Shown piece after piece: positions 18,456 through 48,113 of a stretch of DNA of 64,000 nt. The notes beneath the pieces are model-generated. The model saw nothing but the letters and a program-made list of their open reading frames with translations. It did not search any database and was not told the DNA's origin. Each line of letters begins with the position of its first letter. Within the stretch, counting starts at the first letter, position 1. A program made the translations under genes and the position numbers. This DNA comes from Pseudomonas sp. StFLB209 (GTDB taxonomy: Bacteria; Pseudomonadota; Gammaproteobacteria; Pseudomonadales; Pseudomonadaceae): positions 3,613,001-3,677,000 of the forward strand of contig NZ_AP014637.1 in assembly GCF_000829415.1 (NCBI RefSeq). Reading direction: 5' to 3'.

Positions 18456-19388
18456 ATGCCCCGATCCCTCGTCTCACCCTGGAAACGTGTTGCAGTCAGC
18501 GGTCCGACCGTCGACGGCCGCGAGATATTTCCCCAGGAGTTGATCGACCTCGCTGAGACGTACAACCCGTCGTTCTACACCGCGTCGATCTGGCTTGAGC
18601 ATGAGCGTGGGTTCGGCACCTTCGGCACGGTCTACGCGCTGCGCCTGGCAGAAGACACCTCTGATTTGCAGCCCGGCGAGGTCGCCCTGGAAGCCCGCTT
18701 GAAGCCCAACGACAAGCTGCTGCAGCTCAACGATCTGGGCGAAAAGCTGTTCACCAGCATCGAGATCCGCCCGAACTTCCGTAAGACAGGTCGCAACTAC
18801 TTGGGCGGTCTGGCCGTGACCGATGAGCCGGCCAGCGTGGGCACCCAGGAACTGTACTTCACCGCCCGGCGCGAACTAGGCGCCGAGCGCCTCATGACCG
18901 CACCTCGGCTAAGCCCCGGCATTCCTCTGGACTTTAACGACATGAGCGCAACCGCTGACGAATCCAACTTGTTCGGTGCTTTGGCCCGCTTCTTCAAGCG
19001 CTTCGCCGAGCAGGAAACCGCACCATCGACCGACAACCCTACCGAGAAAACCCCAATGGATGAAGTAACAGCCAAGGCAGCCCAAGGCCTGGTGGAACAA
19101 CTGCTGGTCGTAGCGGCCGGTATTCAGGCTCTTGTCGATGCCTCCGCACCGACCGAACCTGAAGCTGACGCGGATGCTGTCAGCGATGTGAAGGCGGCCG
19201 TAGACACTATCGTGGCCGCTGCCCAGGAAGAAAAGCAGTTGAGCCGCCGTCAGAACTCCGGCAACCAGGCAGTGCTGGCTGGCCAGGCCCGCATTGAAAA
19301 GATGTTCCAGGCGCTTCTGGACACTCCGAAGGGTCGCCAGTTCGCACGCACCACCGGCGACGCTGACAAGAAAAAGCGGGTGCTCTGA
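18456..19388 (+). CDS. Capsid scaffolding protein/protease (P2 gpO family)
   Basis: A protein of 310 residues that guides prohead assembly and then cleaves the capsid and itself. The N-terminal serine protease domain has candidate triad residues Asp20 (TVDGREIF), His49 (WLEHERG) and Ser101 (LFTSIEIRPNF), matching the order and spacing known for gpO. A charged, Ala-rich helical scaffold region follows (about 190-300). It is the first gene of the rightward late operon, 2 bp before the capsid gene. Confidence 0.92.
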   Translation: MPRSLVSPWKRVAVSGPTVDGREIFPQELIDLAETYNPSFYTASIWLEHERGFGTFGTVYALRLAEDTSDLQPGEVALEARLKPNDKLLQLNDLGEKLFTSIEIRPNFRKTGRNYLGGLAVTDEPASVGTQELYFTARRELGAERLMTAPRLSPGIPLDFNDMSATADESNLFGALARFFKRFAEQETAPSTDNPTEKTPMDEVTAKAAQGLVEQLLVVAAGIQALVDASAPTEPEADADAVSDVKAAVDTIVAAAQEEKQLSRRQNSGNQAVLAGQARIEKMFQALLDTPKGRQFARTTGDADKKKRVL

Positions 19389-25503: not shown

Positions 25504-26033
25504 GCCTGCGCAAGAAGATCCTCACCGGTGCCTTGGGCCTGGTGCTGGGCAGCGGCACGCTGATGGGGTTCCTGGGCAAGTGGGAAGGTGAAGGCCAGAA
25601 CCACGTGTATGCCGACAAGTTGGCACGAGGGCTGCCGACCGTCTGCAAAGGCGTAACCAAACACAGCAGCCCGTACCCCGTAATCGTCGGCGACTACTGG
25701 TCACCTGAGCGTTGCGCGGAAGTCGAGGAATTGGTCGTGCAAAAAGGGCAGTTGGCCCTGGCCGACTGCCTGACCAATGAAGCAATCAGCCAGAACACCT
25801 TCGACGCCCTGAGCAGCCATTCCCATAACTTCGGCTCAGCTGCGACGTGCGCGAGCCGTGCCTTGGTCCTGATCAACGCCGGCCGGATCCGCGAGGGCTG
25901 CAGGGCGATCGCCTGGGCCTCGGATGGCAAGACGCCGGTGTGGGCCTACGTGACCACCGCCCAGGGCGAGAAGCAATTCGTCCAAGGGCTGCACAACCGC
26001 CGGCTAGATGAAATGGGGCTTTGCCTGAAATGA
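25500..26033 (+). CDS. Endolysin (phage lysozyme, GH24), probably SAR type
   Basis: A protein of 177 residues. The weakly hydrophobic, Gly/Ala-rich N terminus (ILTGALGLVLGSGTLMGFLG, about 7-26) looks like a signal-anchor-release segment. The lysozyme domain follows, with a candidate catalytic Glu29 or Glu31 in KWEGEG, then NVYADKLARGLPT-like sequence and the later AISQNTFDALSSHSHNFGSA. It cleaves peptidoglycan. Start and stop overlap the neighbours by 4 bp each. Confidence 0.88.
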   Translation: MSLRKKILTGALGLVLGSGTLMGFLGKWEGEGQNHVYADKLARGLPTVCKGVTKHSSPYPVIVGDYWSPERCAEVEELVVQKGQLALADCLTNEAISQNTFDALSSHSHNFGSAATCASRALVLINAGRIREGCRAIAWASDGKTPVWAYVTTAQGEKQFVQGLHNRRLDEMGLCLK

Positions 26034-31140: not shown

Positions 31141-33402
31141 ATGGGTGCAAGCATTACCCTGGCCGGCGAGAGCCTTTTTGCGCAGAAACAAGCGGCCAAA
31201 CAGACCGTCGACGTGACCCGGTTCATCCTGGCCAATGTGCCGGGCCTGGACACCTCAAAGCCCGTTGACCGGGCCGCAGGCCTGCCGGCCGCCGAGCAGA
31301 TCGTGCACAGCGAAGACGTTCAGCACTTCGGCTACCTGGACGCGAACCGGGTCGTCTACAGCCTGCTGATGACCAGCGAGCTGGGCGACTTCGATTTCAA
31401 CTGGATCGGTCTGCAGACGACCGAAGGCACGTTGCTGATCGTGGCCTATGTGCCGCTGCTGCAGAAGCGCCGCGAGATCCCGCCGCTGCAGGCCGGCAAC
31501 AACCTGACCCGCAACATCGTGCTGGAGTACAACGGCGCCCAGGCGCTGACCGGCATCACCGTGCCGGCGAAGACCTGGCAGTTTGATTACTCGGTGCTGT
31601 TCGCCCGGGTTAACGACCGCCTGGCTGTGATCGAAACCAAGCTGGAAAAGAAGCTGGATCTGGACAACTGGACGCCGCCGGCGTTGGTCAACCTGGACGG
31701 CCCCAACCTGGTCTACCCGGGCAGCAACAACACGTACAAGATCACTGACTACAGTATCGGCGCCACGTGGGCCGTGCGCACCAGTCTGGGCACTCTGGCC
31801 CGCAGTGGCGACACCATCACGCTCACCATCCCATCCGGCGCCGCTGCCGGTGTTGTCACGCTGACCGTGACCCGTGACGGTGTCGATGTGCCGTTCAAGG
31901 TCGCGCTGGGAGCGCCTGCGATCGCGGCGCCGGTGATCACCTCACCGGCGAACAACGCGGCAAACGTAGGGTTTGAACCGACGTTCGCGCTATCGGCATT
32001 CACCGTCTACCCGACCGGCTACGACACGCACAAGCAAACCCGCCTGCAGGTCGCACGCGATGCCGCGTTCACTGACCTGGTGCTGGATGAAACCGTGGCC
32101 ACGGATCTGGTCAACATTGCCCTGGCGCGATTCAGCAAACGCCTGGATCCGTCGAAGCGCTATTACACGCGGGGGCTGTTCGTGGGCCAGACGCTGCAAT
32201 CGGCGTGGTCAACGGTGGTGACGTTCAACACGGCATCGGTGTACATCCGCCGGCCGACGATCACCAGTCCGCTGGACGGGGCAGTCAAGGTCAGCCCCTC
32301 GGGCAAGCTGACGAGCGACGCCTTCAGCGTTTATGGGGGCAGTGACACCCATGCGTCCAGCCGCCTGCAGTTGTCCCTGAAAGCCGACTTTTCGACGATT
32401 CTGTACGACTCAGGGTTCAGCACCACGCAGTTGGTGTCGTTCCAGCCGCCCAACGCGCTGCCGTTTGCCACGCTGGTTTATGGCCGCCTCAAGCACAAGG
32501 GCGCGACCCTGGGCGAGTCCGAATGGTCCGCCGTCGTGTCGTTCACCACCAGCGACATTTTGAAAGGCGTGTATACCTTCCTGAACGCCGGCGCGACGGC
32601 GAGGTCTTTCGCCGCAAGTGCCGTTTGTAATGGCCAGCTCTATGTGTACGGCGGGTCGAACGGCGGCTACCCCACTGACTTCTGGCGCTACACCCCAGCG
32701 ACCAATCAATGGGCGCAACTGGTCGGTGAGCAAACAGGTGCAGCACGTAGCGGTGCCACGATGGTTGAGTTTGAGGGCAAGCTGTACCTGTTCGGGGGTG
32801 GTGGCGACACGTCCCCGACCTGGGTAAAAACCCTTCGGGTCTACGACCCGGTAGCAGGTACCTGGACGTCCAAGGCGAACGCGCCCTCAGAGCGAATCAG
32901 TCATTCGGCAGTGGTAATCGGACGAAAGATGTACGTCTGGGGCGGCATCCAATACTACAACTACGGTCCTGCCGCACTGTGGGTCTACGAGTTCGACACC
33001 GACAAATGGGTAACCATCGGTGAGCGGCCAGCGCTGAACTACAACGGCATCGATGCAGTGGCGTGCGTCGGCAAAATGTATGTCTACGAAAACGGTTTTT
33101 TCAAGGCATTTAATCCGGCTGACAACACCTGGGCCGCGCTGACGGCACTGCCGACCAGACGGGTCTACGGCCGGCTTTCCGAGGTCGACGGCAAGATTTA
33201 CCACTACGGCGGTATGACAGACAACAACACGGTTATCGCCGAACTGTGGGTGTATGACCCGCCAACAGACAAGTGGGAACAACTGCCGTCTGGTGGCGGC
33301 GTTCGCCGTAGCCAATCCCAGAACGTCATCAATGGCGAAATCTACGCCTTTGCCGGGCAATCCGGTGCCGGCTTCCTCAACTCCTTTGTCAAAATCGCGT
33401 AG
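31141..33402 (+). CDS. Tail fibre with C-terminal kelch beta-propeller
   Basis: A protein of 753 residues. The N-terminal about 165 residues match the tail-collar fibre attachment domain of P2-like phages (MGASITLAGESLFAQKQAAK, GDFDFNWIGLQT). Ig- or fibronectin-like beta modules follow (about 170-470). From about 475 to the end there are six kelch-type repeats, each with a hydrophobic strand, Gly-Gly, and a spaced Tyr and Trp: LYVYGGSN, LYLFGGGG, MYVWGGIQ, MYVYENGF, IYHYGGMT and IYAFAGQS. The fourth has lost the Gly pair. The propeller is probably the receptor-binding tip. Confidence 0.85.
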   Translation: MGASITLAGESLFAQKQAAKQTVDVTRFILANVPGLDTSKPVDRAAGLPAAEQIVHSEDVQHFGYLDANRVVYSLLMTSELGDFDFNWIGLQTTEGTLLIVAYVPLLQKRREIPPLQAGNNLTRNIVLEYNGAQALTGITVPAKTWQFDYSVLFARVNDRLAVIETKLEKKLDLDNWTPPALVNLDGPNLVYPGSNNTYKITDYSIGATWAVRTSLGTLARSGDTITLTIPSGAAAGVVTLTVTRDGVDVPFKVALGAPAIAAPVITSPANNAANVGFEPTFALSAFTVYPTGYDTHKQTRLQVARDAAFTDLVLDETVATDLVNIALARFSKRLDPSKRYYTRGLFVGQTLQSAWSTVVTFNTASVYIRRPTITSPLDGAVKVSPSGKLTSDAFSVYGGSDTHASSRLQLSLKADFSTILYDSGFSTTQLVSFQPPNALPFATLVYGRLKHKGATLGESEWSAVVSFTTSDILKGVYTFLNAGATARSFAASAVCNGQLYVYGGSNGGYPTDFWRYTPATNQWAQLVGEQTGAARSGATMVEFEGKLYLFGGGGDTSPTWVKTLRVYDPVAGTWTSKANAPSERISHSAVVIGRKMYVWGGIQYYNYGPAALWVYEFDTDKWVTIGERPALNYNGIDAVACVGKMYVYENGFFKAFNPADNTWAALTALPTRRVYGRLSEVDGKIYHYGGMTDNNTVIAELWVYDPPTDKWEQLPSGGGVRRSQSQNVINGEIYAFAGQSGAGFLNSFVKIA

Positions 33403-37048: not shown

Positions 37049-37078
37049 AAAAAGGCCCGCATCAATGCGGGCCTTTTC
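37049..37078. terminator. Bidirectional terminator between late operon and repeat RNA
   Basis: AAAAGGCCCGCAT at 37050-37062 pairs with ATGCGGGCCTTTT at 37065-37077. A T tract is present in both directions (TTTTCTTT on plus, TTTTT on minus), so it ends both the late operon and the minus-strand repeat transcript. Confidence 0.92.
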
Positions 37079-37085
37079 TTTAACG

Positions 37086-37241
37086 CTGCCTATTCGGCAG
37101 TGGACAGATTGGCTATGAATAGCTTTTTCTGAGCTGCCTATTCGGCAGTGGGTACAGCTTCGGTAGAGCTATTTACTGAGCTGCCTATTCGGCAGTTGGG
37201 CTTAGAAAGCCACAATCTTTTCTGAGCTGCCTATTCGGCAG
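37086..37241 (-). repeat. Four I-F CRISPR-like repeat units at 46-48 bp period
   Basis: The 15-bp palindromic core lies at 37227-37241, 37181-37195, 37134-37148 and 37086-37100 (in minus-strand order), all four identical. The 8-nt handle is kept in the first three and degenerate in the last (CGTTAAAG), as final CRISPR repeats often are. The five bases before the core (canonical GTTCA) are TCTGC, CCCAA, ACCCA and GTCCA. Gaps from handle to next core are 23, 24 and 25 nt, against 37 in a standard I-F array. Confidence 0.85.
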
Positions 37242-37250
37242 GCAGAAGAC

Positions 37251-37279
37251 TTTATAGCCTGCGGTTCAGTGTGAGGCAA
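37251..37279 (-). promoter_or_regulatory. Promoter of the repeat RNA
   Basis: On the minus strand: TTGCCT (37274-37279), a 17-bp spacer, TATAAA (37251-37256). The -35 sits in the last codons of the helix-turn-helix gene. The predicted start, 7 nt after the -10, falls within a few bases of the first repeat hairpin. Confidence 0.6.
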
Positions 37280-38014: not shown

Positions 38015-38043
38015 ACTATATATAGCGCGATTCGCGCTATCAA
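38015..38043 (-). promoter_or_regulatory. Promoter with embedded palindromic operator
   Basis: On the minus strand: TTGATA (38038-38043), 17-bp spacer, TATAGT (38015-38020). The perfect palindrome ATAGCGCGA-T-TCGCGCTAT at 38022-38040 lies between the two elements and overlaps the end of the -35. A repressor bound there would exclude RNA polymerase. The downstream helix-turn-helix protein is the obvious candidate. Confidence 0.65.
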
Positions 38044-38851: not shown

Positions 38852-39253
38852 TTAGATTGAGAGTTCGTGCAGTGCTGCGCTTGCGAGAAAACCGGAACGG
38901 GACGCGTATCGGCTGTCTTGCTTCACTCGTTCGTCAATGCGGCTGAGAAGCTTCTCAGGTAACGTTGCATTAAATCGAACGGCTTTACCAGAGTAGGGGG
39001 TTACGTCGAACTCTACGACTGCCCAAATGCCGCCTTGATACTCAGGGTTTGTAATGTGGCTTTCGATAGATGCGGCCTCAGGAAGTTCTTCGTCATCCTC
39101 GACCAAACCTTCGAAATGTAGCGCTAACGCTTCCCGTACGTTGTCCAGTGCCTCCTCGAAGGTGGCTCCAGCGCTGAAACATCTTGGGACGTCAGGAATT
39201 GTCACGCCAAAATCTGTATTGCTGTCTTTGTGTAAAACTACTGGAAATTTCAT
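38852..39253 (-). CDS. hicB: HicB-family antitoxin
   Basis: A protein of 133 residues. The N-terminal partial RNase H fold shows FPVVLHKDSNTDFGVTIPDVPRCFSAGATFEEAL near 3-36. The C-terminal ribbon-helix-helix is FNATLPEKLLSRIDERV, then SRYASRSGFLASAALHEL. It neutralises HicA and represses the hicA promoter. The gap to hicA (106 bp) is larger than usual, so hicB may have its own promoter. Confidence 0.88.
   Translation of the reverse strand: MKFPVVLHKDSNTDFGVTIPDVPRCFSAGATFEEALDNVREALALHFEGLVEDDEELPEAASIESHITNPEYQGGIWAVVEFDVTPYSGKAVRFNATLPEKLLSRIDERVKQDSRYASRSGFLASAALHELSI

Positions 39254-47456: not shown

Positions 47457-47533
<77 letters not shown>

Positions 47534-47668: not shown

Positions 47669-47745
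<77 letters not shown>

Positions 47746-48036: not shown

Positions 48037-48113
<77 letters not shown>

Follow-up and report, generated by a model that had tools for sequence, protein, structure and literature searches.

A prophage in the 64-kb window (the whole stretch of DNA that was analysed) carries four tandem copies of a type I-F CRISPR repeat hairpin directly behind a full-length homologue of acrIF24 on the same strand. Judging from its sequence and its relatives, this unit probably encodes an RNA by which the prophage counters type I-F CRISPR systems, in partnership with the AcrIF24 protein made next to it. An RNA anti-CRISPR had already been proposed in a preliminary description of this DNA, in which the acrIF24 homologue was overlooked; that homologue, the recurrence of the pairing elsewhere and a self-targeting lysogen now lend the proposal support.

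Anatomy of the four-repeat unit

The hairpin CTGCCGAATAGGCAG is present on the minus strand in four identical copies within positions 37086-37241 (Table 1), with hairpin-to-hairpin spacings of 46, 47 and 48 nt, and beyond these no copy was found in the window at up to 2 mismatches. Hairpins 1 to 3 are followed by handles of the form CTCAG(A/T)AA, namely CTCAGAAA, CTCAGTAA and CTCAGAAA, and after hairpin 4 the sequence is CGTTAAAG where a handle is expected, then a terminator-like inverted repeat. Four hairpins, three of them with a handle, is what had been described earlier, and exact matching confirmed it. A chance origin was ruled out because 100 shuffles of the window gave a mean of 0.17 hairpin matches and a maximum of 2, none reaching 4. 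Repeat plus handle is identical at 23/23 nt to the repeats of a 60-nt I-F array in the Pseudomonas genome G269 (C36:30302). This corrects the earlier statement that the type I-F repeat differs by one base in the hairpin and one in the handle, a difference that refers to the P. aeruginosa repeat.

Table 1. Coordinates in the window of the acrIF24 homologue, its predicted promoter and the parts of the repeat unit
Feature	Position	Strand	Basis
Predicted acrIF24 promoter TTGATA-17-TATAGT	38015..38043	-	palindrome ATAGCGCGAATCGCGCTAT between boxes
acrIF24 homologue, 231 aa, protein P0001	37266..37961	-	PDB 7xi1, E 1.4e-50, residues 1-231
Possible array promoter TTGCCT-17-TATAAA	37251..37279	-	read from sequence; start expected a few bases before hairpin 1
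Hairpin 1, Cas6f-type stem-loop	37227..37241	-	exact CTGCCGAATAGGCAG
Handle 1, CTCAGAAA	37219..37226	-	sequence
Linker 1, 23 nt (~18-nt guide + CCCAA)	37196..37218	-	sequence
Hairpin 2	37181..37195	-	exact CTGCCGAATAGGCAG
Handle 2, CTCAGTAA	37173..37180	-	sequence
Linker 2, 24 nt	37149..37172	-	sequence
Hairpin 3	37134..37148	-	exact CTGCCGAATAGGCAG
Handle 3, CTCAGAAA	37126..37133	-	sequence
Linker 3, 25 nt	37101..37125	-	sequence
Hairpin 4, without handle	37086..37100	-	exact CTGCCGAATAGGCAG
Terminator-like inverted repeat, 13-bp arms, 2-nt loop	37050..37077	-	perfect arms; 3' arm ends in T's

The promoter boxes described before the first hairpin are present and make a plausible array promoter. 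They agree with the consensus at 9 of 12 bases, but the scanner passed over them because the sixth -10 position is not T. The proposed -35 box overlaps the 3' end of the acrIF24 homologue and therefore read-through from that gene is also possible. The terminator also stands as a perfect inverted repeat, although it is likewise absent from the scanner's list. The fold prediction that the preliminary description had proposed found the region of the unit to be more stable than 200 of 200 shuffles (z -5.7), in good part because of the terminator.

The acrIF24 homologue and its operator

The product of the gene upstream of the unit is 44% identical to the AcrIF24-annotated protein of phage LESphi3. 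Pfam and PADLOC gave no model for the AcrIF24 proteins and NCBIfam gave nothing above cut-off for AcrIF24 or AcrIF1, so that absence from these collections says little. The published acrIF23-acrIF24 operator is TAGCTCGATCCGAGCTA and lies between the -35 and -10 boxes (PMC9001735); the palindrome ATAGCGCGAATCGCGCTAT in the window has the same layout and is likely, from its sequence and place, to be an AcrIF24 operator. The homologue and the predicted operator together thus resemble the acrIF23-acrIF24 operon (PMC9001735, PMC9638941), and in LESphi3 the published operator sequence, the AcrIF24-annotated gene and a two-repeat unit occur together. Term searches of PMC9001735 and PMC9638941 gave no mention of an RNA unit by acrIF24.

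An alignment search with AcrIF24 gave 33 loci, 7 from genomes and 26 viral; the alignment had been built from unit-adjoining proteins, which biased the search to their part of the family. Of the 33 loci, 11 were inspected for palindromes of the AcrIF24 type, and 9 have them ahead of the acr gene or operon, the exceptions being L167, which has no palindrome, and L175, which has only an unrelated one. Directly before the array no such palindrome was found in any of the 11 loci or in the window; at L172 a palindrome with similar arms (AGCTCGG...CCGAGCT) lies about 319 nt before the array.

No more than 750 nt from acrIF24, 28 of the 33 loci have a short-spaced unit; with lineages defined by 70% protein identity this amounts to 14 of 18, and control tiles of the same loci had none (0/245). 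Three of the five misses, L170, L198 and L199, the last a partial protein match, have no hairpin; L192 has two hairpins with a degenerate handle and was scored as a miss, and at L171 the sequence ends 190 nt after acrIF24. At 9 loci the unit and acrIF24 are convergent, being encoded on opposite strands.

Between acrIF24 and the array, eight loci (L167, L177, L182, L184, L185, L192, L193 and L194) have an ORF of about 60-125 aa. These ORFs lie in the first 400 nt past acrIF24, share motifs such as RADDVREYRRIA and represent a candidate new acr gene; two of them matched no Pfam family.

Short-spaced units form a class

The search against phages that had been proposed earlier was carried out with BLAST and returned two-repeat relatives with 46-47-nt spacing, all of them with a terminator-like repeat behind, in two phages (LESphi3 and IME307) and two plasmid records of P. 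aeruginosa. The LESphi3 unit is directly behind the AcrIF24-annotated gene, and the units of the plasmid records are upstream of an acrF1-annotated gene. A scan of viral contigs that required a handle after the first repeat gave 109 stretches, and a second scan for two I-F hairpins, with the handle not required, gave 118 stretches with 126 arrays and the same picture. The spacing of I-F repeats in viral contigs is bimodal: 442 of 501 intervals are 60 or 61 nt, 51 are 42-56 nt (mostly 46-49 nt) and 8 fall elsewhere, so that 85 arrays are long, 40 short and 1 mixed. The 60/61-nt class consists of ordinary arrays and is separate from the short-spaced units. The unit is thus one of a class and not a one-off. 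The preliminary description named, as a finding that would refute its reading, such repeats next to cas genes with 32-nt spacers that vary; what answers to this is the separate 60-nt class.

Handle counts were taken from the second scan alone because the first had demanded a handle after the first repeat. Counting a handle as kept when at least 7 of its 8 bases matched, it was kept after 47/53 internal repeats of short arrays, 5/40 last repeats of short arrays and 52/85 last repeats of long arrays (Fisher p 3.6e-14 and 2.5e-7). Some of these loci are closely related to one another, the end of a locus may truncate a long array and, as arrays were called with the strict hairpin, the last repeat is sometimes just the last strict one, as in L059. 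After removal of near-identical arrays the handle was kept after 40 of 46 internal repeats versus 5 of 34 last ones (p 6.9e-11). The five short arrays that keep the last handle are L059, L013, L062, L065 and L119. Selection would produce this pattern if the handle counts solely where it forms the 5' end of a crRNA-like piece. It is not predicted if the unit is a multivalent version of RacrIF1, in which the hairpins would hold Cas6f and the RNA 5' of each cut would carry Cas7f, with Cas5f and Cas8f left free and no role for the handle. RacrIF1 itself does work like this, and it still inhibited substantially when its handle was altered (PMC10651486), but its products of 70-76 nt are longer than pieces of 46-48 nt, and we regard a RacrIF1-like mode of action as unlikely.

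The pairing of the hairpin is also conserved. Sixty-five 15-mers were picked from the 33 AcrIF24 loci and the window solely by the handle that follows. With G-U counted as a pair, 53 of them are paired throughout the five-pair stem, and pairs 2-5 occur in alternative types. The 30 distinct 15-mers from the 33 loci make 117 of their 150 potential pairs, against a mean of 99 and a maximum of 114 in 2000 shuffles, a test that takes no account of relatedness among loci. These features bear on whether the unit is a decaying, functionless CRISPR array picked up by a phage. Its repeat is indeed that of a real Pseudomonas I-F array, but decay accounts neither for a separate spacing class, the pairing with acrIF24 in 14 of 18 lineages and stem covariation nor for the retention of internal handles, which makes it a very improbable origin.

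The 67 non-redundant linkers fold at -2.7 kcal/mol versus -1.5 kcal/mol for mononucleotide shuffles, and 31% of them are below p = 0.1; with such a weak control this is suggestive of structure beyond chance. One linker sequence is common to 7 closely related P. aeruginosa mobile-element loci, in one of them with an inserted base.

If the linkers were true guides, the short crRNAs would steer the host Cascade to repress cas genes, as in the guide-type repression of cas genes by CreR, or to bind rival phages. The linker common to the 7 related loci fits this explanation, as does the finding that short guides bind DNA without cutting (PMC7296934). Against it, when 8 guides were compared with 11 Pseudomonas I-F loci, shuffles performed as well (7-59 of 60 reached the observed seed, the value of 7 coming from one guide), the three guides of the window had no match above control in their own genome at up to 3 mismatches, and the P. 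aeruginosa linker had 7 matches in viral contigs away from known units, none of them with a CC PAM. With no target above control or with a CC PAM in the cas loci, the own genome or the viral contigs, a guiding function was rejected as quite improbable.

Many short-spaced units are without an adjacent acrIF24; a match was present in 13 loci. At 10 of the 26 loci listed without a nearby acrIF24 match (L013, L021, L022, L033, L042, L062, L075, L095, L096 and L112) a small ORF begins 19-38 nt past the last hairpin, and these ORFs are candidate acr genes by association. At L068 and L073, about 200-300 nt from a unit with 53-nt spacing, there is a weak resemblance to AcrIF1 (47% over 38 aa, E 6e-5).

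Of the two subtypes tried, I-F and I-E, the short-spaced class is mostly I-F; short-spaced I-E units were found in 4 stretches of viral contigs. One of them (L226:2501-2665, plus strand) has four I-E-type repeats spaced 50, 49 and 50 nt with paired changes in the stem, and sits behind two small ORFs, one of which looks helix-turn-helix-like by eye only.

Two I-F-like hairpins at the normal 60-nt spacing were seen in a Zymomonas mobilis plasmid (L005:3001-3089) behind a gene with an AbiJ-type N-terminal domain, with no cas gene annotated in the 6-kb stretch. The Pseudomonas genomes G006, G079, G174, G345, G355 and G393 each have one I-F repeat pair spaced 60 nt.

Prophage, host and a self-targeting lysogen

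The prophage around the unit is contractile-tailed, with capsid scaffold, major head, tail sheath, tape measure and baseplate genes. The gene past the terminator is a baseplate gene and is convergent to the unit, which argues against a structured RNA unrelated to CRISPR, such as the RNA of a type III toxin-antitoxin system. Tandem RNA repeats of similar size do exist in such systems; here, only tRNAs match Rfam at the gathering threshold within the window, the unit shares its hairpin and handle with the I-F repeat and the partner is an anti-CRISPR homologue, and an RNA of that sort is barely credible.

Elsewhere in the window, a predicted tail fibre (31141-33402, plus strand) has Kelch repeats in its C-terminal half, a HicB-like antitoxin gene (38852-39253, minus strand) lies in the accessory region behind acrIF24, and three clustered tRNA genes on the minus strand (47460-47533, 47672-47745 and 48040-48113) have the same Rfam score.

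No Cas6f was found in the whole host genome (6.33 Mb, one contig), and a CRISPR-Cas system belonging to the host itself was rejected on this ground; Cas6f is present in 12 of 298 sampled genomes of the genus. When 763 distinct I-F spacers from all fetched loci were compared with the window, one from genome G331 (L165) matched positions 25800-25831 on the plus strand at 28 of 32 bases, with a CC PAM and no mismatch in the first 20 bases (25800-25819), and a second spacer of the same array matched at 25 of 32 about 80 bp away; the best match of the same 763 spacers reversed was 24. This stretch is a probable I-F protospacer, and phages of this kind therefore probably meet I-F immunity, though the present host lacks it.

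A lysogen with complete I-F genes was found in Pseudomonas indoloxydans (L168, contig C34 of G269). It has an AcrIF24 gene at C34 17887-18555, a two-repeat unit at 18661-18723 and full-length Cas1, Cas2/3, Cas8f, Cas5f, Cas7f and Cas6f genes, and one of its I-F arrays has the same repeat as the window unit. Fourteen of the 38 spacers read match C34 1-39999, the prophage region in which the AcrIF24 gene and the unit lie, at 24 or more positions. Of these 14, 11 reach at least 28 positions and 10 are accompanied by a CC PAM; in control stretches the matching spacers number 0/38 (23 kb), 1/38 (40 kb) and 0/38 (40 kb). The targets at 19.7-30 kb of C34 fall near the unit, across phage tail genes, and the best self-match is 31/32 with a CC PAM and a perfect seed. 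Such tolerated self-targeting, as read from the genome, implies that I-F inhibition is at work, and AcrIF24 alone could explain it.

Proposed mechanism

From these observations and from published work on Cascade we infer the following course of events. The unit would be transcribed as one RNA with four Cas6f sites, and in a I-F host Cas6f would bind each hairpin and cut at the hairpin-handle junction. Three crRNA mimics of 46, 47 and 48 nt would result, each with an 8-nt handle, a guide of about 18-20 nt and a 3' hairpin, and in general n repeats would give n-1 short-guide mimics. They would hold Cas6f and a shortened Cas7f backbone of about four subunits and, because they keep the handle, would hold Cas5f and Cas8f also. 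The resulting complexes would be too short to trigger Cas2/3, and real crRNAs would be outcompeted. The earlier idea that the RNA soaks up Cas6f or Cascade is kept as the best reading, refined to handle-bearing, short-guide crRNA mimics.

I-F1 Cascade is stable with spacers of at least 14 nt, the number of Cas7f subunits following L = 6N - 4; guides of 14, 20 and 26 nt assemble the complex without interference, and plasmid interference is already absent at 6 nt below the normal spacer length (PMC7296934). RacrIF1 captures Cas6f and Cas7f and not Cas5f or Cas8f, for want of a 5' handle, and a non-targeting crRNA by itself lowers interference (PMC10651486). Taken together, these findings lead to the expectation that the unit should yield decoys holding all subunits. 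AcrIF24 contacts Cas7.2f to Cas7.6f (PMC9001735) and would act later by covering these subunits in full complexes. A complex with about four Cas7f subunits would be without part of the AcrIF24 surface, hence the two inhibitors need not compete. The RNA may also stay on in the lysogen while AcrIF24 represses its own operon, because AcrIF24-type palindromes precede the acr gene or operon and not the arrays directly.

Several observations count against this reading. Units of 42, 48 and 54 nt would correspond to guides of about 14, 20 and 26 nt, and those of the window would be about 18, 19 and 20 nt, so that units of 46-47 nt (18-19-nt guides) fall off the steps of the Cas7f ruler. Some linkers fold into small hairpins that might hinder Cas7f loading. 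The window's host is without Cas6f, 5 of 33 AcrIF24 loci are without a unit by the scoring rule, and many units are away from acrIF24. Finally, a linker common to 7 loci is not required of pure decoys, though those loci are close relatives.

Comparison with known systems

The unit resembles Racr, and RacrIF1 in particular, in that a phage carries a host I-F repeat away from cas loci and close to acr genes, with a plausible promoter of its own (PMC10651486). The mimicry of a host repeat extends over all 23 nt and the hairpin pairing is conserved in relatives; the unit is in a mobile element and not beside cas genes, and it is near an acr gene, which is common for Racr and not required. By the survey rule a Racr is a solitary repeat with no other within 100 bp. 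RacrIF1 has one repeat where the unit has four at 46-48 nt, and crRNA-like pieces with a 5' handle are expected from the unit while the inhibitory RacrIF1 product is without one (PMC10651486). The unit would thus work like a Racr, yet it is not a solitary repeat unit. SRUFinder grouped full matches up to 100 bp apart as arrays, which were disregarded, and dropped candidates with similar flanks (PMC10651486), and we infer that its array rule removed the present class from the published survey.

The unit is not an ordinary type I-F array either, which has a period of 60 nt with 32-nt spacers and linked cas genes. Viral CRISPR mini-arrays likewise consist of few repeats and occur in viruses that have no cas genes, but they have full-length spacers that are mostly against related viruses (PMC11656645), unlike the window unit with its guides of about 18-20 nt and no target found. 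A further likeness is to I-F1 Cascade with truncated spacers, in which short guides assemble all subunits and give no interference (PMC7296934); that complex is a laboratory construct, whereas the phage units would exploit its effect in nature. Searches of open-licence papers turned up neither short-spaced tandem units nor an RNA by acrIF24, and either may have been noticed before.

Significance

We are somewhat inclined to a broader proposal, that phages encode a distinct class of RNA anti-CRISPRs, namely tandem mini-crRNA cassettes whose short-guide mimics, several per transcript, build complete but inert Cascades and thereby tie up every subunit. For I-F the usual partner would be AcrIF24, outside whose autorepression the cassette would lie; the class would have been removed from the survey by the solitary-repeat filter, and at least one I-E counterpart (L226) may exist. 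A survey filter can in this way hide RNA anti-CRISPRs, and a search signature of 42-56-nt spacing with a lost last handle may lead to more units and perhaps to new acr genes alongside. The short-guide design predicts a mechanism that differs from that of RacrIF1, and it would make a laboratory effect, in which short spacers assemble a complex that does not cut, a natural strategy. AcrIF24 has so far been studied as a stand-alone protein; if the RNA is active, the acrIF24 locus would be a two-part weapon of protein plus RNA.
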